Virus record (IMG/VR): IMGVR_UViG_3300042946_000412
Location: 1 to 46,491 of that record
Length of the DNA: 46,491 nt
Source of the DNA: a virus
Reading direction: 5' to 3' (one strand)
In this document: piece by piece, positions 3,711-43,298 of the stretch
Layout of the letters: each line of letters opens with the position of its first letter
Numbering within the stretch: position 1 is the stretch's first letter
Made by a program: the position numbers and the translations under genes
Notes under the pieces: generated by a model
Database searches by the model: none
Seen by the model: only the letters and a program-made list of their open reading frames with translations
What the model was told of the DNA's origin: nothing

Positions 3711-3937
3711 TGGAGCCGTTATTTCTGAATGACGACCAGCTAAAGGAACTTACCGGACGCGTTGTGCGTCGGTGCCAGATAGAGTCCTTGCGGCAGATGG
3801 GCATCCCGTTCCGCGTCAATGCGGCTGGTCGCCCCGTGGTTTGCAGGTCTGCGGTTGAAGGCGGAAAATCAGCCGCCACATCAGCATCAGACTCAAGCTG
3901 GACACCGAGGGTACTCCATGGGAAGGCGACCAACTAA
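3710..3937 (+). CDS. DUF4224-type protein, candidate excisionase
   Basis: This 75-residue protein begins MEPLFLNDDQLKELTGRV and carries the DUF4224 pattern: L..deLkeLTG, RRCQIESLRQMGIPFRVNAAGRPVV. Members typically lie directly upstream of phage integrases and are thought to act as small DNA-binding directionality factors; that role is inferred from context. The start at 3710 overlaps the preceding stop (TAATG). The 3' end overlaps the integrase start by 20 nt. The Ser/Ala-rich C-terminus is probably unstructured. Confidence 0.75.
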   Translation: MEPLFLNDDQLKELTGRVVRRCQIESLRQMGIPFRVNAAGRPVVCRSAVEGGKSAATSASDSSWTPRVLHGKATN

Positions 3938-4961
3938 GCACCTGAACCTGCCGCCCAGGTTGCGGTTACGCACCCGGCGCGAGACGGAATATTACTACTA
4001 TGACTGCGGCGGGAAGCCACGCAAGGAAATCCCGCTCGGTTCTGATTATGTCCTGGCCATCAAGAAATGGGCAGAACTGGAACAGGGCGACCGATACAAA
4101 GAGACTGCGCTCACCGCGACATTCCCACTGCTGTGGGACCGCTACGCCATGGATGTGCTGCCAACGCTCAAGCACGGCACCATCCGCACCCATAAAAGCG
4201 ACATCAAGCATCTGCTTGGATTCTTCGGTGATCCGCCTGCGCCGCTTGAGAAAATCAAGCCCATGCACATCCGCCAGTTTCTGGACTGGCTGAAGGACAA
4301 GCCAACAACAGCCAACCGCTGCAAGCGTCTATTCTCGACCCTGTGGAATCACGCCAGAGGATGGGGATGGACTGACACTGAGAACCCTTGCGCGGGCATT
4401 ACCGGACATACCACCGGCAATCGCGAGGTCTACATCTCCGATGCCGTCTTCATGGCCGTGCGTAACGCCGCCTCTGCACCGATCCGCGACGCTATGGACC
4501 TGGCCTATCTAACTGGCCAGCGACCCGCCGATATTCTCAAAATGAACGAGACGGACATTCAGGACGGCACCCTACCCGTCCACCAGGGCAAGACCGGGGC
4601 GAGAGTTCGAATCCGCATTGAGGGAGAACTGGCCGACTTGCTGGAACGCATCAAGGCTAGGAAGCGCGGATACAAAGTCTGGACAACCTTCCTACTGGTG
4701 CAGGAAAACGGCAAGCCGCTGACAACCATGACGCTGCGGAATGGATTTGTCGCCGCAAGAGATGCCGCTTCTGAGCGCAATCCTGACATGGCGGAAGAAA
4801 TAAAAGCCTTCTGGTTTTATGACCTCAGGGCCAAGGCAGCCGACGACAAGGCCGACGCGGAAGGTGAATCTGAAGCCCAAAAACTGCTCGGCCACACCGA
4901 TGGTCGGACGACCTCACGGCACTATCTGCGCCGGGGCAAAATCGTCAGCCCTACTCGGTGA
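3918..4961 (+). CDS. int: Tyrosine-family phage integrase
   Basis: This 347-residue site-specific recombinase integrates the phage at a host tRNA-Gly. The basic N-terminus (residues 1-40) should be the arm-binding part, residues about 85-165 the core-binding SAM-like domain, and 170-340 the catalytic domain. Active-site residues visible are Arg202 (TGQRPADIL), Lys225 (HQGKTGA), Arg304 in FYDLRAK (Tyr301 where many have His), His326 in LLGHTDGRTT and the nucleophile Tyr336 in RHYLRR. ATG 3918 has a GAGG site 7 nt upstream and gives the usual integrase start (MGRRPTKHLNLPP). It lies immediately left of attP. Confidence 0.93.
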   Translation: MGRRPTKHLNLPPRLRLRTRRETEYYYYDCGGKPRKEIPLGSDYVLAIKKWAELEQGDRYKETALTATFPLLWDRYAMDVLPTLKHGTIRTHKSDIKHLLGFFGDPPAPLEKIKPMHIRQFLDWLKDKPTTANRCKRLFSTLWNHARGWGWTDTENPCAGITGHTTGNREVYISDAVFMAVRNAASAPIRDAMDLAYLTGQRPADILKMNETDIQDGTLPVHQGKTGARVRIRIEGELADLLERIKARKRGYKVWTTFLLVQENGKPLTTMTLRNGFVAARDAASERNPDMAEEIKAFWFYDLRAKAADDKADAEGESEAQKLLGHTDGRTTSRHYLRRGKIVSPTR

Positions 4962-24857: not shown

Positions 24858-25418
24858 GCTGTTACCTCTGGTGGTGATTGAGACAGAATGCAGTTCTTGC
24901 GAACCGCGTATTTGCGCGGAGGAATCCGCAGGGATGGTGACGATGGAGAGTTCCATCGGCTCCCAATCGGTCGCCCGGTACGTCGGCATTCCGCCGCGCT
25001 CGGTGGGCTTCTCGATCTCGTATTCGTGAACCTGGTAGCCCACGCTGATGTTTCGGAGGATGCCTGCCTTCACATCGTTGATAATCGGTGCCACGTCTTC
25101 ACGGTCGCTGAAGCGGACGGTGGCGCGGCCTTGGTTGCCATCGATCCAGGCTTTCTCAACGACACCAATGACGGCATCGAGCGAACGGGCATCGTGATTG
25201 GCGAGCAGGGGTGCGCCGGAGTTGAGGCGGTCCATGCGGATGGCCTTGGCATCCAGTGAGAGTTCTTCCAGATACGGCCCTTCCATCCAGTCGAAGCGGC
25301 GGACCTGGGCGCCGGTCGTCCACACCAGTTCGACGGTGCGGGCTTCCTCGTTATAGGTCTGTGGCTGGACAGCGGCCCGCGTGGATAGCATCGGGATCTG
25401 TTGAGTGAGTTCAGGCAT
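23493..25418 (-). CDS. Prohead protease/major capsid protein fusion, 641 aa
   Basis: Residues 1-185 form a prohead protease-like domain: PLLANHDARSLDAVIGVV holds the expected catalytic His, and EPMELSIVTIPADSSAQI the Ser region, as in HK97-type (S78/U35) proteases. Residues about 188-310 form a charged, helical scaffold-like part with EVQAPVEAPVAPDANE. Residues about 320-641 are capsid-like, with SDGNALLSSAHGNIQTAGG and the C-terminal VELPFGVGIVDYRGIYWNDGA. This organisation matches known protease/major capsid fusions. It overlaps the portal stop by 8 nt. Confidence 0.85.
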   Translation of the reverse strand: MPELTQQIPMLSTRAAVQPQTYNEEARTVELVWTTGAQVRRFDWMEGPYLEELSLDAKAIRMDRLNSGAPLLANHDARSLDAVIGVVEKAWIDGNQGRATVRFSDREDVAPIINDVKAGILRNISVGYQVHEYEIEKPTERGGMPTYRATDWEPMELSIVTIPADSSAQIRGSQELHSVSITTRGNSMSEPSENQTPADEVQAPVEAPVAPDANEIRAQVRSQELSRISAIRDAVRKARLDDAFADKLIDKGVAIDEARASIIDAMATKSDASATPSRIEMGATHEEKALRGMEEALLARAGIVKHEDLKGNEFRGMRLSDFARLSMEKAGQNTRGLSYDAMAQAVLRNGQTTSDFPVLLENVMHKTLLAAYQTAPDTWRQIARVGSVSDFRAWKRLRTGTLANLEPVNEAGELNNMPISDATAESVQASRYGNIISVTPETIVNDDFDWIANQSAALGRAAARTIEAAVYAKLIANPTMSDGNALLSSAHGNIQTAGGAISVANVDAGRVAMAQQMDNDSNDYLNIRPSILLCPISMGGNARVVAGSQYDPDSAARLLVPNKVNGLISTVIDTPRLSTGWYLLANPTDAPVIEVVFLDGNQNPRIQQEESFRTKGLSWSVELPFGVGIVDYRGIYWNDGA

Positions 25419-26835
25419 TCATCGCTCCTGTTTGCGTGTCGGTGGCGCTGACTTTTGGCTTGGCGTCGAAGCGGTAATCGCTCTCGACAATCACGCCAGC
25501 GGCATCGAGTTTCTTGAGGTATTCGGCTTGTTCGGCCAGGACGGCATCGGGGTCGAAGCCTTGCGAGCGGATGGCTTCCGGCAGGGTCATGAATCCCGCA
25601 CGGACGGCGGTCATCAGTGCCGGCCATTCACGGGCCGGGTCCACCAGGGTTCTGGCGGGCGGCGTCCATTCGGCGGTGAGGTCGGTGACGTTCATGCCTT
25701 GAATGGCCAGCGCATCCTTGAACCAGGCGAAGACGCCATGACAGAAGCGCGGGATAAACAGGTTCCACAGCCATGCGTCGATGTTGCGGCCCATTTCGTG
25801 GGCACCCATACGGGCACTGCTGAAGTTGACTTCAGAGAGATTGCCGGTCAGTGCTTCAAAGGTGATTCCGAAGCCAGCAGCGACACGGCGCAGGCAGGCA
25901 TCACGAAAGGCAGGATCTTCGCCAGCGGGCGGTGGGTTGTTAAATTCCACCCGGCGTCCGTTCTTCATCAGATAGAGAGTGCCGGGTTGCAGGTCGGGTA
26001 TTTCGTCGGCCAGTTCTTCATCCATCGCGGCGGGGTCATCGGAATAGATGAAACCGGCGAACAGGTTGCTGATCTGCTGACGCTTTAGGTAAGCGTCCTC
26101 AAAGATGCCCAGCTCGCGCAGGGTGACGATGACCGGCGCGGTCCATGGCACGCCCCTTTCCTGACCTGGCCTGTCCTTGCGGAACAGGTGGATGATTTCG
26201 TCTGCGGGAACGCGGCTGTACTGAGCCGGTGACAGATTGATGAGGTCTGCGCCGGGGTGGACCCTGTAGAGGTAGTAAGCCACCCGACGACCGAGCGCGT
26301 CGTATTCGATGCCACGTTGAATCTGGTTGCCGTTTGCCAGACCGGACAGTTGCACGGTGGTAATGCCGGATAGATCATCGACCAGCAGATCCGGCTCAAT
26401 CACCTGAATCTGGAACGGGACAGGCAGTCCATCTTCAACGCGACGCTGGCGACGACGTATGATGACTTCGCCAGACTCGGCCAATGACCGCATGGCCAGC
26501 GCCTGCAAGCCATAGATGTCATGCAAGCCATCCGCATCACAGGCAGAGGTTTCTGCCCATCTTTGCCAGATCATTTCGGCTTGCTTCTGTCGGCCTTTGG
26601 CCTTGTCGCGCAACTGAGCGCGGATGCCGTAGCCGATGCAGTTATTGACGATGACGCTGACGCCCTTGGCGGCCCATGGGTTATTACGGACCAGATCGCG
26701 GGAACGATTGCGGATGGTTGCAGGCGATTGAATCGCCGCATTCGCATCGGTAGCCGGGGCAACCCAGCTAGATAGCCGAGGATTACGCGAGGCGGCGTCG
26801 TAACGGCGCTTGTTGAGCTTGGTGACGGTACTCAT
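25411..26835 (-). CDS. Portal protein (lambda gpB family), 474 aa
   Basis: This reads MSTVTKLNKRRYDAASRNPR...RNRSRDLVRNNPWAAKGVSVIVNN, a classic lambda-type portal opening. Characteristic blocks follow: IIRRRQR, GIEYDALGRRVAYYLYRVHPG, ADEIIHLFRKDRPGQERGVPW, AYLKRQQISNLFAGFI and RRVAAGFGITFEALTGNLSEVNFSSAR. It forms the dodecameric DNA gate of the prohead. The start at 26835 is preferred because its ATG overlaps the preceding stop (ATGA); an in-frame codon 9 positions upstream is possible. Confidence 0.93.
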   Translation of the reverse strand: MSTVTKLNKRRYDAASRNPRLSSWVAPATDANAAIQSPATIRNRSRDLVRNNPWAAKGVSVIVNNCIGYGIRAQLRDKAKGRQKQAEMIWQRWAETSACDADGLHDIYGLQALAMRSLAESGEVIIRRRQRRVEDGLPVPFQIQVIEPDLLVDDLSGITTVQLSGLANGNQIQRGIEYDALGRRVAYYLYRVHPGADLINLSPAQYSRVPADEIIHLFRKDRPGQERGVPWTAPVIVTLRELGIFEDAYLKRQQISNLFAGFIYSDDPAAMDEELADEIPDLQPGTLYLMKNGRRVEFNNPPPAGEDPAFRDACLRRVAAGFGITFEALTGNLSEVNFSSARMGAHEMGRNIDAWLWNLFIPRFCHGVFAWFKDALAIQGMNVTDLTAEWTPPARTLVDPAREWPALMTAVRAGFMTLPEAIRSQGFDPDAVLAEQAEYLKKLDAAGVIVESDYRFDAKPKVSATDTQTGAMNA

Positions 26836-27041
26836 AGCCCGTCGCTCGCTATCGGTCGCCACGCCCTGCCCCGTGCCGCGCTTGGGGTTGCTACACCCAG
26901 CTCAGCCTTGATCTGGTCACGCAACTTGATAAGCGCGTCGAGTGACTGATAAACGACCACCCGCCCGTCTATTTCAACGCGCAGGGTTCCTGACGCAATA
27001 GCGCCTTCGATGGTCTCAAGTTGTGCAGTGGTGTACGCCAT
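26832..27041 (-). CDS. gpW-like head completion protein, 69 aa
   Basis: This protein (MAYTTAQLETIEGAIASGTL...YQSLDALIKLRDQIKAELG) is the size of lambda gpW and sits directly before the portal gene as gpW does. The pattern 'l..le.AiasG...v...gr.v.Y.sl..L......i' is typical of that family, which joins head and tail. The C-terminus is basic. No clear ribosome site precedes it; instead two hairpins abut its start. Confidence 0.75.
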   Translation of the reverse strand: MAYTTAQLETIEGAIASGTLRVEIDGRVVVYQSLDALIKLRDQIKAELGVATPSAARGRAWRPIASDGL

Positions 27042-27090
27042 GCCGCACTTTTTACGCGGCAGGCGTCAAGCGTTTTAGGGGGAAACGCTT
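27042..27090 (-). promoter_or_regulatory. Two adjacent perfect hairpins between regulator and head genes
   Basis: GCCGC (27042-27046) pairs with GCGGC (27056-27060), and AAGCGTTT (27068-27075) with AAACGCTT (27083-27090). The first abuts the gpW-like start codon; the second reaches the last codon of the Mor-like gene. With no T-run they are more likely an operator, an RNA-processing site or a translational switch than a terminator. On the minus strand a TTGACG lies between them without a good -10. Confidence 0.4.
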
Positions 27091-27368
27091 TACAGAATGG
27101 CGGAAGATTTGCGGGCGTTGTGGACGGTCTGGCGGGTGACGCCAAGGCGGGCCGATATTTCGGATGGTGTCAGGCCTTTTTCGGCCAGTTCGGCAATCCT
27201 CATCTGGCGGATGATGTGGGATCGGCGGGCAATGTATACCTCGTCGCCCCCGTAGCGGCAGCGCCAGTCTCTGATCTTGGCGCGGATCTCTGAAACGACG
27301 CCCTCGGCGTGAGCCGCAGACAAGGTGTCGCAGATTATGGATTCCAGGGCGTCAATCGGATCAGCCAT
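27090..27368 (-). CDS. Mor-like transcription activator, 92 aa
   Basis: It begins MADPIDALESIICDTLSAAH. The segment KIRDWRCRYGGDEVYI near residues 32-47 matches the Mor/C family of Mu middle regulators, in which GG..VYI forms the dimerisation strand. A C-terminal helix-turn-helix follows (LTPSEISARLGVTRQTVHNA). Mor binds promoters lacking a good -35 and contacts RNA polymerase. Here it lies just before head genes, so it may drive a late promoter. The start overlaps the upstream stop region. Confidence 0.7.
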   Translation of the reverse strand: MADPIDALESIICDTLSAAHAEGVVSEIRAKIRDWRCRYGGDEVYIARRSHIIRQMRIAELAEKGLTPSEISARLGVTRQTVHNARKSSAIL

Positions 27369-27573
27369 ATTGCGCTTGATGTCTTTCCCAGTCTTGTTGG
27401 CACTCAATGCAGCGGACGGCATGGGGCGCGGCCTTGAGTCGCTGCGGCTCGATCAGTTCCTGGCAGTCCACGCAGTAATCCGAAGCCCGCATGACGTGCT
27501 TGCGGCGATGCTTGATGCGGTATTCCTCCAGCCACTCGGCTTGCGCCTGGGCCTTGTCGGCATCATCGGCCAT
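27361..27573 (-). CDS. DksA/TraR-family C4 zinc-finger protein, 70 aa
   Basis: This protein (MADDADKAQAQAEWLEEYRIK) has the signature YCVDCQELIEPQRLKAAPHAVRCIECQ, a four-Cys zinc finger of the TraR/DksA type. TraR-like phage proteins enter the RNA polymerase secondary channel without ppGpp. The length matches TraR-type rather than full DksA. It overlaps the Mor-like gene by 8 nt, which suggests joint control of late transcription. Confidence 0.8.
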   Translation of the reverse strand: MADDADKAQAQAEWLEEYRIKHRRKHVMRASDYCVDCQELIEPQRLKAAPHAVRCIECQQDWERHQAQYG

Positions 27574-27775: not shown

Positions 27776-28007
27776 CTTTCTGCTCCTTAGCCATTTCGCA
27801 AATGAGGTGAGCCATGAGTCCGTACTGTCTGATTGAACGTGGTTGATACTCGCCATCGGGTTTGTCCTCTATGTCGGCAATCACTGCGGGGCTGATGTGG
27901 CAACTGCACCCGGCTTGAGTAAGGATCGCGCCCGCACATAGCCACGCAGCAGCGTGTCGCCGCAGTCGTTGGCGGTCACTTTGTCGCCCTGGATGTCCAG
28001 CAGGCAA
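27768..28007 (-). CDS. Candidate o-spanin-like lipoprotein in overlapping frame
   Basis: This frame overlaps the 28207-27881 gene in a different phase, an Rz/Rz1-type arrangement. Its reliable part begins near RRHAAAWLCAGAILTQAGC, a basic N-region, hydrophobic stretch and Cys that resemble a (weak) lipoprotein signal, and continues SCHISPAVIADIEDKPDGEY to KEQKDE. No ATG is available: TTG 28007 gives 79 aa and CTG 27965 gives 65 aa. The downstream part beyond 27881 is not shared with any other gene, which supports translation. Confidence 0.45.
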   Translation of the reverse strand: MPAGHPGRQSDRQRLRRHAAAWLCAGAILTQAGCSCHISPAVIADIEDKPDGEYQPRSIRQYGLMAHLICEMAKEQKDE

Positions 28008-28207
28008 TCGGTGCCGATGGGCGGCATGACCAGGGTCGGGCAGGTTTGCGCGGGCTTTTGGCCGAGAGAAATATCCATCAGCTTGTCCACCTTGGTCTGG
28101 GCGCAGCCGGATAAAAAACCGAACAGCGCCAGCAGGGTGATGAACAGGCAAGCGCCAATAAAGCAGAAGGCGGCGGCAATGGCGGAATCAAGCACTTCGC
28201 GATTCAT
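27881..28207 (-). CDS. Membrane/lipoprotein lysis-cassette protein, 108 aa
   Basis: It begins MNREVLDSAIAAAFCFIGAC; residues 9-30 are strongly hydrophobic and end in LFGFLSGC, which fits both a membrane anchor and a lipobox (LSGC). The rest is soluble with four more cysteines (AQTCP, TDCLL, NDCGD). ATGA overlap with the preceding gene sets the start at 28207. With the overlapping frame after it, this looks like a spanin pair; which member spans which membrane is unclear. Confidence 0.55.
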   Translation of the reverse strand: MNREVLDSAIAAAFCFIGACLFITLLALFGFLSGCAQTKVDKLMDISLGQKPAQTCPTLVMPPIGTDCLLDIQGDKVTANDCGDTLLRGYVRARSLLKPGAVATSAPQ

Positions 28208-29119: not shown

Positions 29120-29379
29120 GGCTTGCTCTCAATCTGGCCGGTCGCCTTCGCGACCCAGAGGACCGTGTGAATTACCCAGTCCACGACGACATCGGCCAGG
29201 TCGCCCGCCAATTCCTTGATGAGGTCCGCCGCCCGTTGGTGCTTGATGGCGTTGCTGATGGCTTCGTTGGATTGGCCGACGATGAAGTTCTTGATGCGCT
29301 CGACGTTGGCCTTGTCGAGCGCCTGGTCGGTAATGGCCCCGATGACCAGCATCGCGGCCCATTTGAGAAATGCGTTCAT
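29116..29379 (-). CDS. First gene of lysis unit, small membrane-associated protein, 87 aa
   Basis: It begins MNAFLKWAAMLVIGAITDQA. The short hydrophobic N-terminus may be a signal anchor; amphipathic helices (SNAIKHQRAADLIKELAGDLADVVVDWVIHTVL) follow. The start at 29379 is supported by AAGGGGG about 8 nt upstream and by the strong promoter just before it. It may be an antiholin or accessory lysis factor; it is not a recognised family. Confidence 0.6.
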   Translation of the reverse strand: MNAFLKWAAMLVIGAITDQALDKANVERIKNFIVGQSNEAISNAIKHQRAADLIKELAGDLADVVVDWVIHTVLWVAKATGQIESKP

Positions 29380-29406
29380 GCGGAAACCCCCTTGAGATTT
29401 CCGCCA

Positions 29407-29433
29407 ATTATACTACATATTGTGGTTTGTCAA
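29407..29433 (-). promoter_or_regulatory. Strong sigma70-type promoter for the lysis unit
   Basis: On the minus strand the -35 is a perfect TTGACA (29428-29433) and the -10 a perfect TATAAT (29407-29412), with 15 nt between. Consensus hexamers with a short spacer suggest tight control rather than weakness. It lies between the gene ending at 29457 and the lysis unit starting at 29379, in the middle of an otherwise continuous late operon. Confidence 0.65.
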
Positions 29434-29452
29434 GCGTCTAGGCACTATATGT
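29415..29452. promoter_or_regulatory. Inverted repeat over the lysis promoter (operator candidate)
   Basis: ACATATTGTG (29415-29424) and CACTATATGT (29443-29452) are inverted with 9 of 10 matches. One arm sits in the spacer and the other upstream of the -35, so a bound dimer or looped tetramer would block the promoter. It differs from the CI-type sites at 39923 and 43340, which implies another regulator, possibly host-encoded. Confidence 0.5.
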
Positions 29453-29456
29453 TGTG

Positions 29457-30221
29457 TTACATGCTGGATTTTGCTGCCTGCATCAAGCGCCGGTCGCTGG
29501 CGATAGCCTTCATCAGACTTTCACTCATAAGCCGCTTGCCATCGCGCTTGAGCGTCTCTTCGGCAATGTCGGCCAGGTCGATGGCCCGTTTGTACTTACC
29601 CTTCCGCACAAACATGATGATCGGCTCCAGTCCGTTGATCTTGTCGCGAAACCAGATACCAGGCGTGAGCTTGGTGCGGTCGCCAGGATGAACCACAAAG
29701 TATCCGCTGCCCTTGTTCTTGCCCTTTTCCTTGCTTCCGGTCGAAAAGCGGACGCGCCTGTTATGCTGAATCTTCTCGCGCCATGGCTCTTTTAGCAGGC
29801 GGCGAATCAATCCGAGCGGAATGTTGCCGTAGCTGTCGAGACTCATCGACCGGCTGGGAACCATCTGCATCCCTTCCGGCAAGACACCTATCTTGGTGAA
29901 CGCACCCTCGGCTTTCTTCCATGCTCGACTGCCTCCGATCAGTTCATGCGCCAGTGCCCGCCTAAATCCGCCCTTCTTGCGTAAACCGACCCAGGCTTCC
30001 GGCGCTTGCTTGCTAGTGGCCTTTTCAACCTCCATTGATCTGAGCGTGAAGCTTGGCTTTGGTCGGTCAAATTCATCACGCATCTCGTTGATGGTGTCTT
30101 CGCGAATCTGGAATGCCAGCGAGTTGAGAGTCTGCTGCATGGCGAACGGCATCTGCCGCTGGACGACCGTTTTGAAGAAATCCCGAACGGCTTGGCTGTT
30201 GTGGGTGATTTCAATCTTCAT
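29457..30221 (-). CDS. gpZ/minor-tail-like structural protein candidate, 254 aa
   Basis: It begins MKIEITHNSQAVRDFFKTVV...MPFAMQQTLNSLAFQIREDTI, the opening seen in phage minor tail Z-like and HK97 gp10-like proteins ('.f...v...qlPfa...aLN.lA...r..'). The rest is basic (RVRFSTGSKEKGKNKGSGYFV) and ends AAKSSM. The ATG overlaps the terminase stop (ATGA). Lying directly after terminase it is displaced relative to lambda, where Z is in the tail block. The call is moderate and rests on the N-terminal pattern. Confidence 0.5.
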   Translation of the reverse strand: MKIEITHNSQAVRDFFKTVVQRQMPFAMQQTLNSLAFQIREDTINEMRDEFDRPKPSFTLRSMEVEKATSKQAPEAWVGLRKKGGFRRALAHELIGGSRAWKKAEGAFTKIGVLPEGMQMVPSRSMSLDSYGNIPLGLIRRLLKEPWREKIQHNRRVRFSTGSKEKGKNKGSGYFVVHPGDRTKLTPGIWFRDKINGLEPIIMFVRKGKYKRAIDLADIAEETLKRDGKRLMSESLMKAIASDRRLMQAAKSSM

Positions 30222-32074
30222 AAAATCGCACTCGATGTTCTGGCCTTGGGTTTGGCTTTGGCGGGTTCGGCTGACTTCTGTCTTTCCTGCACCAGCTGAC
30301 GGGCGATCTGCATCAATCGTCCATCGTGGCGCTTGAGAAATTCCAGACCGGCCACGGCATAGACGAAACAGTCGAAGGCTTCATTCCTTGCACCTGCCGG
30401 TTTCTTCCACACGCGGACGCGGACGCCCTTGGTGTTGTAGGTGGTCACGCGCCGTTCTACGGTCAACTGCTTGAAGTAATCACCCGGCAGATTCATGCTG
30501 AAGCTGACGTACTTCGGCAACTCTGGATTCGTTACCGCCAGCGCGGAATAGATTGCGTCCTTGGCCGTATCGACGCCCACAAGCTGCAACCGTGCGCCGT
30601 TTCTCAGTTGCTTGTTGGAGAGCTTGACCGGCCAGATCGGGTGATTCCCGGCGCGGCCCTTGATGGCAAAGATGCGCCGCCCGGTATTGGCCGAGACGTA
30701 ATCATAGACTTGCTTGGTATGCAGACCACCGGAGTCGATACAGGCGGCGTTGATGTTCATCACGCGTCCGGTGTCAGTGGGATATTCAGCCTTCAGGATG
30801 CCATCCAGTTGCCGCCAGACTTCCGGCGCGGCGGGACTACCGATCAACTTGTGATGGTGCATCACCTTGGCCTGTTCGGTGGCGGTAAAGCCGATGATGG
30901 AGACTTCCAGCCGATCCAGCTGGCAATCGACGCCGGCGACTAAAGCGACACAGGCATCCGGCACGGCCCGCCATATTTCCCGGCGTGACATCAATCCACC
31001 CTCGTCCACCACTTCGCCGCTGCGCTCTTCCCAGCACTGGCCGAGCTTTGTGTTGATGAAGGATTGCAGCTTGGTGGGATGGCCTTGCGCGGCCAGGAAC
31101 TCGCGGGCGGCATCAGCCCATGAATACCAGCCGGGTGGAGAGTACAGGGACGACAGGTGGAAGCCGATGGTGTGGGTGTCTGCGCTGGCTTGCGTCGCCC
31201 GCCATTGGCCGCGATCCAGCATCATGCCCTTGTGGCGTTCATCGATCAGTGAGCCGCAATGTTCACACGCCAGCGCGGCGGTATCCGGCAAGCCTTCCTG
31301 CCAGATGATGCGCTTCCAGTCGATAACCTGATAACCGTCGCAGTCTGGGCAGGGAACGTAGTAATACTGCTGGTCGGTATGCTCAAAGGCGTTCCAGATG
31401 CGCGACTGGCCCTCAATCGTCGGTGTGCTGCACAGGAATATCTTCCGGTTGCGCTTGAATGTGCTGGTACGGGCGATGGCCAGATCCACGGGGTCGCCCT
31501 CGCCTTCCACGTCACCAGGGTAGGCGTCCACTTCATCGAGGAACAGATATCGGGCTGGCATCGAGCGGAGGCCGGTGGCGGAGTTAGCGCCGGTCATCAC
31601 CAGCGTTCCGCCTGGGAAATCCTTCTGGAAAAGCGTGTTTCCGGCATCTCGCGCTCGACTGGGGGCGATGCGCTCAACCAGAACCGGCGTGGCGTCGATC
31701 ATCGGCTGAATCCGCTGCTTACTGACGCGCTTCACCATGTCCAGGGTCGGCTGAACCATCATCGCGGGAGCCGGGGCGTGATGGATGCAGTATCCCAGCC
31801 AATTACTCCCGGTCTCCGTCGCACCGATCTGAGCGCCCTTGGCGAAGACAACCGTGTGATACGGACTGCCGGTAGACAGTGCGTCCATGATGGCCTTGAG
31901 ATACGGGGTGCGACTGGTGCGCCACGGTCCCGGTTCAGCCGCGCCCTTGCTGGGCAGGATGCGGTAATGGTCAGCCCACTCGGATACGAGGAGGAGCGGT
32001 TCTGGCCGGATGCGGTCAACAAACCGCGTCCAGGCCAGTGTCACCTCGGCAGGGCTATCCAGTACGGTAGTCAT
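30218..32074 (-). CDS. Terminase large subunit (lambda gpA family)
   Basis: This 618-residue packaging motor begins MTTVLDSPAEVTLAWTRFVD and has the gpA pattern: SEWADHYRILPSKGAAEPGPW, then the ATPase A-motif region VVFAKGAQIGATETGSNWLGY, LFLDEVDAYPGDVEGEGDP (acidic B-motif), FLCSTPTIEGQSRIW, CPDCDGYQ and CEHCGSLI zinc pairs, and a nuclease domain with AGVDCQLDRLEVSI. It cuts and pumps DNA into the prohead. gpA-type enzymes usually act at cos sites. Confidence 0.95.
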   Translation of the reverse strand: MTTVLDSPAEVTLAWTRFVDRIRPEPLLLVSEWADHYRILPSKGAAEPGPWRTSRTPYLKAIMDALSTGSPYHTVVFAKGAQIGATETGSNWLGYCIHHAPAPAMMVQPTLDMVKRVSKQRIQPMIDATPVLVERIAPSRARDAGNTLFQKDFPGGTLVMTGANSATGLRSMPARYLFLDEVDAYPGDVEGEGDPVDLAIARTSTFKRNRKIFLCSTPTIEGQSRIWNAFEHTDQQYYYVPCPDCDGYQVIDWKRIIWQEGLPDTAALACEHCGSLIDERHKGMMLDRGQWRATQASADTHTIGFHLSSLYSPPGWYSWADAAREFLAAQGHPTKLQSFINTKLGQCWEERSGEVVDEGGLMSRREIWRAVPDACVALVAGVDCQLDRLEVSIIGFTATEQAKVMHHHKLIGSPAAPEVWRQLDGILKAEYPTDTGRVMNINAACIDSGGLHTKQVYDYVSANTGRRIFAIKGRAGNHPIWPVKLSNKQLRNGARLQLVGVDTAKDAIYSALAVTNPELPKYVSFSMNLPGDYFKQLTVERRVTTYNTKGVRVRVWKKPAGARNEAFDCFVYAVAGLEFLKRHDGRLMQIARQLVQERQKSAEPAKAKPKARTSSAIL

Positions 32075-40005: not shown

Positions 40006-40701
40006 ATGAATGACGAAGGCGAAAACCTTAGAAAACGGTTTGATGGGTTAAAACGAGAGAAAGGAATCAGCCGTGCCGCGTTTGCAAAAATGAACGGCAT
40101 CAAAGGCGGCGACGCAATGATTTATCAGCACCTCAATGGATTGAAGCCCATTAGCCTTGAAGCCGGAATGGCTTATGCCAAAGGCTTTGGCTGTAAACTG
40201 GAGGACATTAGCGAACGGCTGACAAGCGAAGTGAAGGCAATCTCGGATGATCTCTCACAGAACGTCAACCTCGGCCTCAAGCTCTACCCAGACCGTCGCG
40301 GCTACCCCATCATCAGCGCCATTCAAGCAGGCAACTGGCGTGAAATTGTGGACAGCTTCCCGCGTGGGGGTGCCGATGAATACATCATGGCCTCCAACAC
40401 CTATTCGGCGCACACCTTCGCCCTGCGCATCACTGGCAACAGCATGGAGCCGGAATTTAAGGAAGGGGACGTGGTGGTGATTGACCCGGACGTTCGCCCT
40501 TCGCCGGGTGATTACGTGGTCGCCAAAAATCACGAGGAAGCTGCCACGTTCAAGAAGTACCGCCCACGCGGGATAGACGCGAGCGGTGTTGAGATATTTG
40601 AGCTAGTCCCACTGAATGAGGACTATGCCATCATGCGCTCCGATCAGCAGCCGATTCATATCATCGGCACGATGATGGAGCACACGCGATATCGGCGTTA
40701 A
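40006..40701 (+). CDS. CI-like repressor with S24 (LexA-type) autoprotease domain
   Basis: This 231-residue protein (MNDEGENLRKRFDGLKREKG) has an N-terminal HTH in residues 20-70 and a peptidase S24 domain from about 100. The cleavage bond is Ala108-Gly109 in SAIQAGNW; nucleophile Ser146 is in GNSMEPEFKEGD and general base Lys183 in EEAATFKKY. RecA* during SOS should trigger self-cleavage and prophage induction. A GGGG-type ribosome site precedes the ATG. The stop overlaps the convergent helicase-methyltransferase stop. Confidence 0.93.
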   Translation: MNDEGENLRKRFDGLKREKGISRAAFAKMNGIKGGDAMIYQHLNGLKPISLEAGMAYAKGFGCKLEDISERLTSEVKAISDDLSQNVNLGLKLYPDRRGYPIISAIQAGNWREIVDSFPRGGADEYIMASNTYSAHTFALRITGNSMEPEFKEGDVVVIDPDVRPSPGDYVVAKNHEEAATFKKYRPRGIDASGVEIFELVPLNEDYAIMRSDQQPIHIIGTMMEHTRYRR

Positions 40702-43298
40702 GCCGCTTCCAGCTCCGATTCATCCTCAAAGGTATCAAACAATGAGGGCGTCGCCATCTGCTCTTCAGCCGCCTTGCAGTAGCCTACCCCGTCAAAGAAA
40801 TAGCTAGGACTCAGTTCGATCCCGTAGCCCTTGCGGCCCTTCAGCACGGCCCGGTAAGGCACTGTCATCAGTCCACCGAAAGGGTCCAGCACGGTTTCAC
40901 CCGGCATGGTCAAGCGATCAATCACCCGGTCGGCTATATCAAACTGCATCGGGCATAAGTGCATCTGCTGGCCTTTGCTGTATTGGTTGCCGTTCAGGGT
41001 GCGCATGCGTGTCACATCGGTCCAGACATGCCCATTGGACGATTGCGGCTGCAACAGCATAAAAGAGGTCGGGAGCCGCATCTCCCCTTCCAGGCTTTCG
41101 CCAATCTTTACATGATGCTCATAGTCATAGATGGTCGTCATGCTGTAATCGCGGAACAGCTTGAAGATGACATCGTGTGCCAGGTTGCTCAACTCTTCCG
41201 GCATCAATAGCCGGTCGCCACTGGATCGCTGAAAGCCATGCGCGTCTAACTGCCATCGGGCGCGACTGTAGCCGGTGCCGGGTTTAATCGGCTTATAGAG
41301 GTCGAAGGGGATCTCGTTTCCATCGTCATCAATACAATTCGGCTTGCTCTTTTTGGCCGGTTTGTCGGAGTAGCTGTTTTCATTACTGGTCGGCGGCTTG
41401 CGGAACAGCAGCAGGTATTCCGGCATTCCCACGCCCATTTTTGTTGCGTCCTTGCATTGTTCAGACCAGCCGAGCCGATAGGTCTGGTTATTTTCCCGCA
41501 CGACGTCGGTGACGATGGTCACCATGCCCATATAGGCGAAGCCGTGCTTGGTGTAGTGGTTGATGGTGTCCATGTGGAACGGGTACACCGTCTGGAAGCC
41601 TAGCCCGGTCAAACCACCGGGGACAATCCGATCCTTGACATGGATCGCTGCCATGCGGCCCGGTTGCAATACGCGCAACAGGTTTGGCGTCAGGTAATCC
41701 ATCTGCTCAAAGAAGTGCTGATTAGAGTCCGTATGGCCGAAGTCGTGATAACTCGGGCTGTATTCGTACTGGGTGGAAAACGGGATGCTGGTGAGGATCA
41801 AATCGACACTGTTTTCCGCCATGCGCCCGGTCTCAATCACGCAGTCATTATTGACCGCTGTCCAGCCCTTGCCGGTCACTTCCACCCGTTCCACGCCCAT
41901 TTGCCGCTGCAACGCTTCACGCATGCCAGCCGTGGTTAATCCGTATTCCTTAATGATTTCGCTCATGGTGTCCACCGTTTGATTATGTCTAGTCCACTTG
42001 TCTTGAAGGATGCGCAGCACTTGCCGTTCTGATTCGGCATGGACGATATGCAAGTTGACCGGGTGCGCTTGTAGGAAGCGATAGACCCGATGCACGCCCT
42101 GGATGAAGTCGGCAAACTTGTAGCCGACCCCGGCAAAGATCATCGTGTGACATTGCTGCATGTTGATCCCGGCCCCGTACATGACCGGCTTGCTAAGAAA
42201 GACCGCCGTCCGCCGTTCACGCCAGTCATCCAGTAACGTTTCGCGCAGGTCGATAGATTGGTTGCCGTAGAGGCTGGAAAAGCTGTAGCCGCCTTCTTTC
42301 AGCATCTTTTCCAGCGCCTTCTGCTCGTCGTTGAGGTCACACCAAATCACCACCTGATCTTGAAGCGTGCTATCCGGATTCCGCATATCGGCCAGAATAT
42401 CGGCCACAGCCGCCACGCGGGTGTCCATCGTCTCGCGCTTTTCCCGTGCGGCTTCCACAATGCCGCCGGTCGCTTCCCTGAATAACTGGAACTGCCCCCA
42501 TTGATTCGGATGCGCTTCGGCATGGTCTACCTCCACCTCATGATAGTGAACGTGCATGGGCGGCAAAGCGTAGCCGGTATCATCGTGGCCCAGGTCAGAT
42601 GGCCGTTGTAGGAAGATGCCCCAAGACGCCACCCATAGCCAGAACTCGCGTTCCTTATGCGGGTGAATGGTCAACTGGTCGGCCTTGGTGGAGTCGCGCT
42701 TAAAGAATCGAGTTTTCGCTTCCCCGACATCCATCACTTCCAGATAGGCCGAATAAGCCAATAGCTCGATAAACTCATTCGGACTCGGCGTGGCCGTGGC
42801 CACGAACTTATAGCGGACGCCCTCAAACAGCCGCATAAACTCGCGGAACGTCTTGGTGGCCCCAAAGCCACGTAGGCAAGCCGCTTCATCTAGTGAAGTT
42901 GCCTCAAACGCTCGCGGGTCCAACTTGCCATCGCGGACGCTTTCGTAGTTGGTGATATACAGTCCCGGCCCGGTCGCCTCTTCGGTGGAGCGGATGAAGG
43001 TGATGGATTCCCCCAGCATCGCGGCATCCCGACGAAACTCGCCACGGACCCCAAGTGGGGCCACAATCAAGCCCTTGCCGCCTTCGGTCTGCTTCAGGCA
43101 AGCCTTCACTATTTCAATCTGCATGACAGATTTGCCCAGGCCAAAACTGGCAAAGATAGCCGCCCTGCCCCGCTTGACCGCCCACCGGACAATATCCACC
43201 TGATGCGCTTTCAGGATCGGATGCACCGGCATCTGGGTCGTTTCCTGATCCTCCACCGCCATCGGCACCTTGGCCTTTAGAAATTCCTCGTAGTTCAT
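40698..43298 (-). CDS. Helicase-DNA methyltransferase fusion, 866 aa
   Basis: Residues about 25-460 are a SF2/SNF2-like motor: Walker A FASFGLGKSVM, LDEAACL (DEAH-type box II), VATATPSP, GINMQQCHTMIFAGVGYKF and QGVHRVYRF (box VI). Residues about 490-866 are an N6/N4-type methylase: motif IV is LTSIPFSTQYEY (SIPF where SPPY is usual) and motif I is VLDPFGGLMTVPYRA. The conserved stretch DFGHTDSNQHFFEQMDYL and RENNQTYRLGWSEQCKD identifies a phage family. It lies between cI and pL on the opposite strand to its neighbours, a moron-like place. AAGGAG precedes the ATG. Protection from restriction or altered epigenetic state is plausible but unproven. Confidence 0.85.
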   Translation of the reverse strand: MNYEEFLKAKVPMAVEDQETTQMPVHPILKAHQVDIVRWAVKRGRAAIFASFGLGKSVMQIEIVKACLKQTEGGKGLIVAPLGVRGEFRRDAAMLGESITFIRSTEEATGPGLYITNYESVRDGKLDPRAFEATSLDEAACLRGFGATKTFREFMRLFEGVRYKFVATATPSPNEFIELLAYSAYLEVMDVGEAKTRFFKRDSTKADQLTIHPHKEREFWLWVASWGIFLQRPSDLGHDDTGYALPPMHVHYHEVEVDHAEAHPNQWGQFQLFREATGGIVEAAREKRETMDTRVAAVADILADMRNPDSTLQDQVVIWCDLNDEQKALEKMLKEGGYSFSSLYGNQSIDLRETLLDDWRERRTAVFLSKPVMYGAGINMQQCHTMIFAGVGYKFADFIQGVHRVYRFLQAHPVNLHIVHAESERQVLRILQDKWTRHNQTVDTMSEIIKEYGLTTAGMREALQRQMGVERVEVTGKGWTAVNNDCVIETGRMAENSVDLILTSIPFSTQYEYSPSYHDFGHTDSNQHFFEQMDYLTPNLLRVLQPGRMAAIHVKDRIVPGGLTGLGFQTVYPFHMDTINHYTKHGFAYMGMVTIVTDVVRENNQTYRLGWSEQCKDATKMGVGMPEYLLLFRKPPTSNENSYSDKPAKKSKPNCIDDDGNEIPFDLYKPIKPGTGYSRARWQLDAHGFQRSSGDRLLMPEELSNLAHDVIFKLFRDYSMTTIYDYEHHVKIGESLEGEMRLPTSFMLLQPQSSNGHVWTDVTRMRTLNGNQYSKGQQMHLCPMQFDIADRVIDRLTMPGETVLDPFGGLMTVPYRAVLKGRKGYGIELSPSYFFDGVGYCKAAEEQMATPSLFDTFEDESELEAA

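Follow-up and report, generated by a model that had tools for sequence, protein, structure and literature searches.

Why should the lysis genes of a phage, standing in the middle of a late operon, have a promoter of their own, and which regulator would read the palindromic sequence that lies over it? These questions are raised by a locus in a single viral contig of 46,491 bases (IMG/VR virus record IMGVR_UViG_3300042946_000412), which was analysed over its whole length and is called the window below. The locus is best explained as a sigma-70-type promoter of the phage lysis unit, placed inside a putative NrdR-type operator. NrdR is a dATP/ATP-sensing repressor of ribonucleotide reductase (RNR) genes.

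Gene order and promoter of the lysis unit

The virus looks lambda-like and temperate. Besides an integrase and a CI/LexA-type repressor (Table 1), the window holds exonuclease VIII and RecT at its right end, and a DnaB-type helicase and a primosomal protein on the minus strand. The late block, also on the minus strand, begins with the small terminase, followed by a large terminase of the GpA type (Pfam and PHROGs); the closest named terminase, among the best 30 of 801 records, is 48.3% identical. An earlier note on this DNA had placed a lysis unit between terminase and portal, and the Pfam and PHROGs matches bear out this order: after the endolysin come more small proteins, then a helix-turn-helix protein, then the portal. 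By eye, the 108-aa protein of this unit has a hydrophobic N-terminal stretch and a lipobox-like cysteine, and it may be a spanin. The helix-turn-helix protein weakly matches a late transcriptional activator family (phrog_836, E 1.4e-5) and is also found, by eye, in two related loci (L023 and L026). No relative of the 254-aa protein next to the site was found in genome_contigs. Elsewhere in the window, an 866-aa protein (40698-43298, minus strand) matches a DNA helicase family for the greater part of its length, with further matches to DNA methyltransferase families within residues 478-834, and is possibly a fusion of the two.

The lysis genes do have the TTGACA-15-TATAAT promoter that had been attributed to them; it is read on the minus strand, ahead of the genes for the 87-aa protein, the holin-like protein and the endolysin. 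Each hexamer agrees with the canonical sigma-70 sequence at 6 of 6 positions. The spacer of 15 nt, a length found in all nine distinct sequences compared below, is under the canonical 16-18 nt, and a standard promoter scan missed the site because it allows only spacers of 16-18 nt. From the -10 to the ATG at 29379 there are 27 nt, which include a leader hairpin (-16.1 kcal/mol, z -4.5). The hairpin is kept in one relative (L003, z -3.55) and is weaker or different in two others (L023, z -1.45; L249, z -0.73); its predicted folding suggests an extra translational brake on the first lysis gene.

Table 1. Position of the lysis promoter, its boxes and the main genes in the window
Feature	Position	Strand	Remarks
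Integrase	3819-4961		
Portal protein	25411-26862	-	Downstream of lysis unit; Pfam/PHROGs
Small helix-turn-helix protein	27090-27422	-	At end of lysis unit
108-aa protein, spanin candidate	27881-28207	-	Without family match
Endolysin, 197 aa	28299-28892	-	phrog_181, E 1.1e-53
Holin-like protein, 76 aa	28889-29119	-	Weak phrog_3428 holin match, E 0.002
First lysis-unit gene, 87 aa	29116-29379	-	Without family match
Leader hairpin	29380-29404	-	Pairs most of ribosome-binding site AAGGGGG, directly before ATG
-10, TATAAT	29407-29412	-	15 nt from -35
NrdR-type box B, downstream, CCACAATATGTAGTAT	29410-29425	-	Overlaps -10 and promoter spacer
-35, TTGACA	29428-29433	-	Between the two boxes
NrdR-type box A, upstream, 16-bp palindrome ACACAACATATAGTGC	29442-29457	-	
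Minor tail protein family gene	29457-30221	-	Upstream of site; phrog_1924
Terminase large subunit, GpA type	30218-32074	-	Pfam/PHROGs
CI/LexA-type repressor	40006-40701		

Two palindromes resembling an NrdR operator

The promoter had been described as covered by a 9-of-10 inverted repeat. The arms of this repeat are real (ACATATTGTG at 29415-29424 and CACTATATGT at 29443-29452, plus-strand letters), but they are parts of two tandem 16-bp palindromes (29410-29425 and 29442-29457), each symmetrical in itself; a single inverted repeat was thus rejected, and the element as first delimited stops 5 bp short of the end of the upstream palindrome. Read on the minus strand, the layout is box A, TTGACA, box B with its end overlapping TATAAT, and ATG. 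The first base of box A is the final base of the stop codon of the upstream gene, and the boxes are 32 bp apart from centre to centre, with a 16-bp spacer.

NrdR boxes have the published consensus acaCwAtATaTwGtg, usually present twice, the copies being a whole number of helical turns apart (PMC4009431). For scoring we used ACACWAYATRTWGTGT, the same consensus with Y/R allowed at two inner positions, a widening made after the window had been seen. Box A agrees with it at 15 of 16 positions and box B at 14 of 16 (14 and 13 of 16, respectively, without the widening), and no other site reaching 12/16 on the unwidened consensus exists elsewhere in the 46-kb window. The pair scores 29/32; in 100 second-order Markov copies of the window, the best pair spaced by 31 or 32 bp scores 23. 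Unwidened, it scores 27, a value attained neither in 40 simulated windows (highest score 21) nor in 20,000 shuffles of the intergenic 78 bp (highest score 23). When any spacing from 25 to 45 bp was allowed, the best pair in the window was still the one at 32 bp (29/32), and the best pairs in three E. coli nrd promoters, which make up the whole bacterial positive control, were found at 31 bp, with scores of 26, 25 and 27.

Four bacterial NrdR proteins are reported to bind best at spacers of about 14-17 bp, and again at 24-27 bp, binding being some two orders of magnitude weaker at other spacers within the tested range of 12-27 bp (PMC12051234). The 16-bp spacer of the window falls within this optimum. 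Overlap of an NrdR box with the -10 is likewise described in the nrd promoters of Pseudomonas aeruginosa (PMC4409342). Like the bacterial nrd operators as described (PMC4009431, PMC12051234), the site thus combines two 16-bp palindromes close to the same consensus, a spacer of suitable length and overlap with a sigma-70-type promoter; unlike them, it precedes phage lysis genes and no RNR genes. By sequence it is, very probably, an NrdR-type operator, and it lies outside the nrd operon regulon as published.

Several other candidates were considered. The statement that the repeat does not resemble CI-type sites stands: no second copy is present at the repressor gene or anywhere else in the window, and a CI/Cro-type operator was rejected on this basis. 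A known RNA element was rejected as well, with no Rfam match at the gathering threshold. A phage-encoded NrdR was rejected in the same way, as the window has no ATP-cone match; with no ATP-cone gene there, the regulator must come from the host. According to a 2014 review, nrdR is present in all eubacteria known at the time except Rickettsia, Helicobacter and Desulfovibrio (PMC4009431). The earlier note had left room for control by another regulator, which would most likely be host NrdR, with the dNTP pool as the expected signal.

Conservation among relatives

The four loci found through relatives of the upstream gene all show box A, TTGACA, box B, TATAAT and ATG in this order. A scan with the promoter pattern gave 15 stretches, 14 of them with a box A of at least 13/16; the remaining one, L248, lacks box A and differs in its gene. 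The same pattern had two matches in genome_contigs, in MAGs of Treponema and Bacilli whose genomes hold no 32-bp pair, and we take these matches to be due to chance.

The holin-like protein offers a test in which the promoter is not the bait. It retrieved 21 loci, 20 of them with readable upstream DNA (L259 is cut off), and a pair at exactly 32 bp is present in 19 of the 20, L275 being the one without, although 13 of the 21 lie on contigs already found by the promoter or box scans and the query alignment was seeded with promoter-selected loci. The other eight comprise six with the pair (four distinct sequences), one without and one cut off. Many relatives are near-identical, such that the 19 amount to eight further distinct promoters and two loci identical to the window's. 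Conservation was measured on the nine distinct promoter sequences, the window's included, all rows coming from protein searches. Mean divergence was 18.4% and 16.3% in the two boxes and 0% in the -35; it was 48.6% in the spacer without the -35, 47.8% in the 10 bases upstream and 53.3% in the leader. A set selected by the pattern (the window and 10 relatives) gave 17.7% and 14.1% for the boxes and 49.6% for the spacer, the selecting pattern itself fixing the -35 and most of box B. TTGACA is unchanged in the nine distinct sequences, and the -10 in the relatives is TATAAT or TACAAT.

The operator-promoter is kept while the genes around it change. The endolysin is of the phrog_181 type in the window and L249; L026 and L050 have one of the phrog_7 type. 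By eye, the groups also differ in their first gene and in the upstream gene, and the counterparts of the first gene in L003, L023 and L249 have no family match. In L275 (2400-3000), a 69%-identical relative with a similar holin-like gene, the preceding 420 bases contain no NrdR boxes; T-run hairpins, terminator-like by eye, stand in their place. NrdR-type control is therefore not essential to such a lysis unit.

Which gene does the promoter serve? A simple scan of the minus strand between terminase and promoter found no terminator-like site, and read-through from an upstream late promoter could therefore express the lysis genes regardless of NrdR. With nothing found to block transcription from terminase, the promoter might work mainly for the 87-aa gene, as a lysogen function (exclusion, immunity), while lysis would be driven by the upstream late promoter. 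That gene, which has no family match, is indeed the promoter-proximal one in the loci that we read. However, the first three genes of the unit overlap in the window, a holin-like gene comes after the first gene in every locus that reaches that far, an endolysin comes after the holin-like gene where the locus is long enough, and it is the first gene that is very different, by eye, among L003, L249 and the window, the promoter being kept. We therefore regard this scenario as rather doubtful, and tend to view the promoter as that of the lysis unit as a whole.

A possible mode of control

It is likely, in our opinion, that host NrdR loaded with dATP represses the lysis promoter, and that falling dATP during replication opens it. 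Given a full dNTP pool, host NrdR carrying dATP and ATP would occupy both palindromes and kink the DNA; bound to the operator, it would block RNA polymerase and keep the promoter quiet in lysogens and during early infection. Phage replication would then consume dATP, NrdR would return to its non-binding form and the promoter would open, such that synthesis of the lysis proteins would be coupled to phage DNA replication. If there is read-through from the upstream late promoter, the NrdR-controlled promoter would set the onset or the level of expression.

The biochemical part of this scheme has been described for NrdR itself: at rising dATP levels the protein takes up both ATP and dATP and thereby becomes able to bind DNA (PMC12051234). 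In pneumococcus infected by phage SpSL1, no other host genes are reported to rise nearly as strongly, at 50 or at 90 min, as the operons with NrdR sites in front of them (PMC6755750), which supports the idea that NrdR control is relieved in infection. In P. aeruginosa, however, NrdR is reported to activate topA, with no significant effect of hydroxyurea (PMC4409342), and this counts against the scheme. So do the 15-nt promoter spacer, the group of viral pairs at 27 bp described below, the relative that lacks the boxes (L275) and the possible read-through.

Relation to known systems

Host regulators acting on phage promoters are already known, LexA and CtrA being examples; NrdR sites in phages are apparently new, and we found no report of NrdR boxes in phage genomes in the open-licence literature. 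In phage GIL01, promoter P1 is repressed by host LexA together with the phage protein gp7 (PMC4551915). As would be the case in the window, a host repressor that senses the status of DNA sits directly on a promoter of a temperate phage. In contrast, the GIL01 system, as described, involves LexA and the SOS response, the lysogenic promoter P1 and a phage partner, with no nucleotide sensing.

Another parallel is the 'lytic deferment' by CtrA described in alphaproteobacterial phages, where sites for a host regulator, present in several phage lineages, are proposed to time lysis (PMC9437464). There too, the sites of a host master regulator would tie lysis to host physiology. CtrA, however, is a cell-cycle regulator whose sites are dense in one intergenic region (PMC9437464); in the window, the lysis promoter carries just one NrdR-type pair, for which the expected signal is the dNTP pool. 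The word NrdR has 0 occurrences in the CtrA phage text PMC9437464. As for SpSL1, the induced operons with NrdR sites are host genes, and the available part of that paper mentions no phage NrdR site (PMC6755750).

Box pairs in other viral contigs

If phages use NrdR, similar pairs should not be confined to the window. We scanned IMG/VR for two ACWAYATRTWGT cores at set spacings, with a pattern widened beforehand (Y/R) to fit the window's boxes. The spacings of 31 and 32 bp each gave at least 120 stretches with a pair, whereas 42 bp gave 43 (33 distinct), 27 bp gave 12 (8 distinct) and 37 bp gave 0. The spacings thus closely follow the helical-phase rule of NrdR, but for the small 27-bp group, which corresponds to an 11-bp spacer that the rule does not predict. 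Within this group (L277, L301, L311 and L318-L326), several loci resemble one another by eye, and the first three named have an additional core that makes up a 42-bp pair.

At 31 and 32 bp, the pairs listed comprise 198 distinct ones, from 242 occurrences in 238 loci; near-identical relatives of the window (L077, L123) are among them. Only 5 of the 198 lie inside an ORF of at least 130 aa, whereas 2497 of 3960 positions drawn at random from these loci do, and the pairs can therefore be seen as elements of intergenic, promoter-type regions. Plain chance as the origin of the window's pair was rejected on these position counts and the viral spacings, together with the simulations and shuffles given above.

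The avoidance of coding sequence also bears on a scenario in which the boxes would mainly soak up host NrdR as phage copies build up. Host RNR operons would then be derepressed and the dNTP supply increased, any control of the lysis genes being a side effect. The strong induction, during SpSL1 infection, of host operons that have NrdR sites in front of them (PMC6755750) agrees with such titration, as does the presence of several box pairs on some viral contigs. A decoy could sit anywhere, however, and the pairs are rarely found in long ORFs; moreover, the window genome has one pair only, and the boxes frame a TTGACA and TATAAT/TACAAT promoter in 19 of the 20 holin relatives. Titration as the main function is unlikely, and we retain direct repression of the lysis promoter by NrdR.

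Which genes follow the viral pairs? In a search with E. coli RNR queries of classes I and III, only 3 of the 198 distinct pairs have such a gene starting within 2.5 kb downstream. In L152, the pair stands 23-25 bp before an NrdA gene, which is followed by NrdB. Neighbouring ORFs (at least 80 aa, on either side, starting within 350 bp of a pair) were compared through 150 of 151 cluster representatives. Among the 25 commonest of 200 PHROG families, those with two or three neighbour ORFs are terminase small subunit, portal, endolysin, antirepressor, HNH endonuclease, methyltransferase, scaffold, head-tail adaptor and two families of unnamed function, and RNR families have single ORFs each; the Pfam view covers 25 of 38 families. 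In 20 ORFs picked by hand, we counted four portal proteins, two terminase small subunits, two endolysins, one scaffold, one tail fibre (C-terminal stretch only), one RNR, one methyltransferase and eight of unnamed function. Late genes form a large share of any phage genome, and their number here may simply reflect this share. It appears that most of the genes which phages place under NrdR-type operators are not class I/III RNR genes, and that late genes are among them. Nine loci (L006, L038, L098, L099, L128, L141, L165, L185 and L216) have pairs before portal, terminase small subunit, scaffold or endolysin genes, and their contigs carry differing versions of such late genes.

This scarcity of RNR genes (3 of 198 pairs) could also mean that the palindromes are read by a different regulator, of phage or host, unrelated to nucleotide sensing. 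The 27-bp group exists, and a small helix-turn-helix protein is encoded within the lysis unit itself. Yet the sequence, the pairing and the spacing of three or four turns all fit NrdR, the same score singles out 31 bp in each of the three E. coli nrd promoters, and the pair of L152 does stand before NrdA and NrdB. We find a different regulator improbable, and NrdR remains our preferred candidate.

Whether the window illustrates a general strategy is a matter on which we are evenly divided: different phages may, on repeated occasions, have set operators of host NrdR in front of their late or lysis genes, where these would serve as a late switch gated by the dNTP pool. If this is true, late expression would start only after replication has drawn down dATP, and the window would be one clear case of a general and so far unreported mode of phage timing. 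To our knowledge, it is an open question, outside a few model phages, by what means a phage detects that its DNA has been copied sufficiently; a host dNTP sensor read out by a late or lysis promoter would be a simple answer. Lysis timing would then be tied to drugs or mutations that change dNTP pools, and the NrdR regulon, discussed for RNR genes and topA, would extend to mobile elements.

Finally, some contigs carry NrdR-type pairs in several separate stretches, such as 3300025012_000035 (L012, L021, L032 and L047) and 3300031555_004942 (L016, L062 and L129), as might be the case if a large phage kept more than one of its operons under common control.
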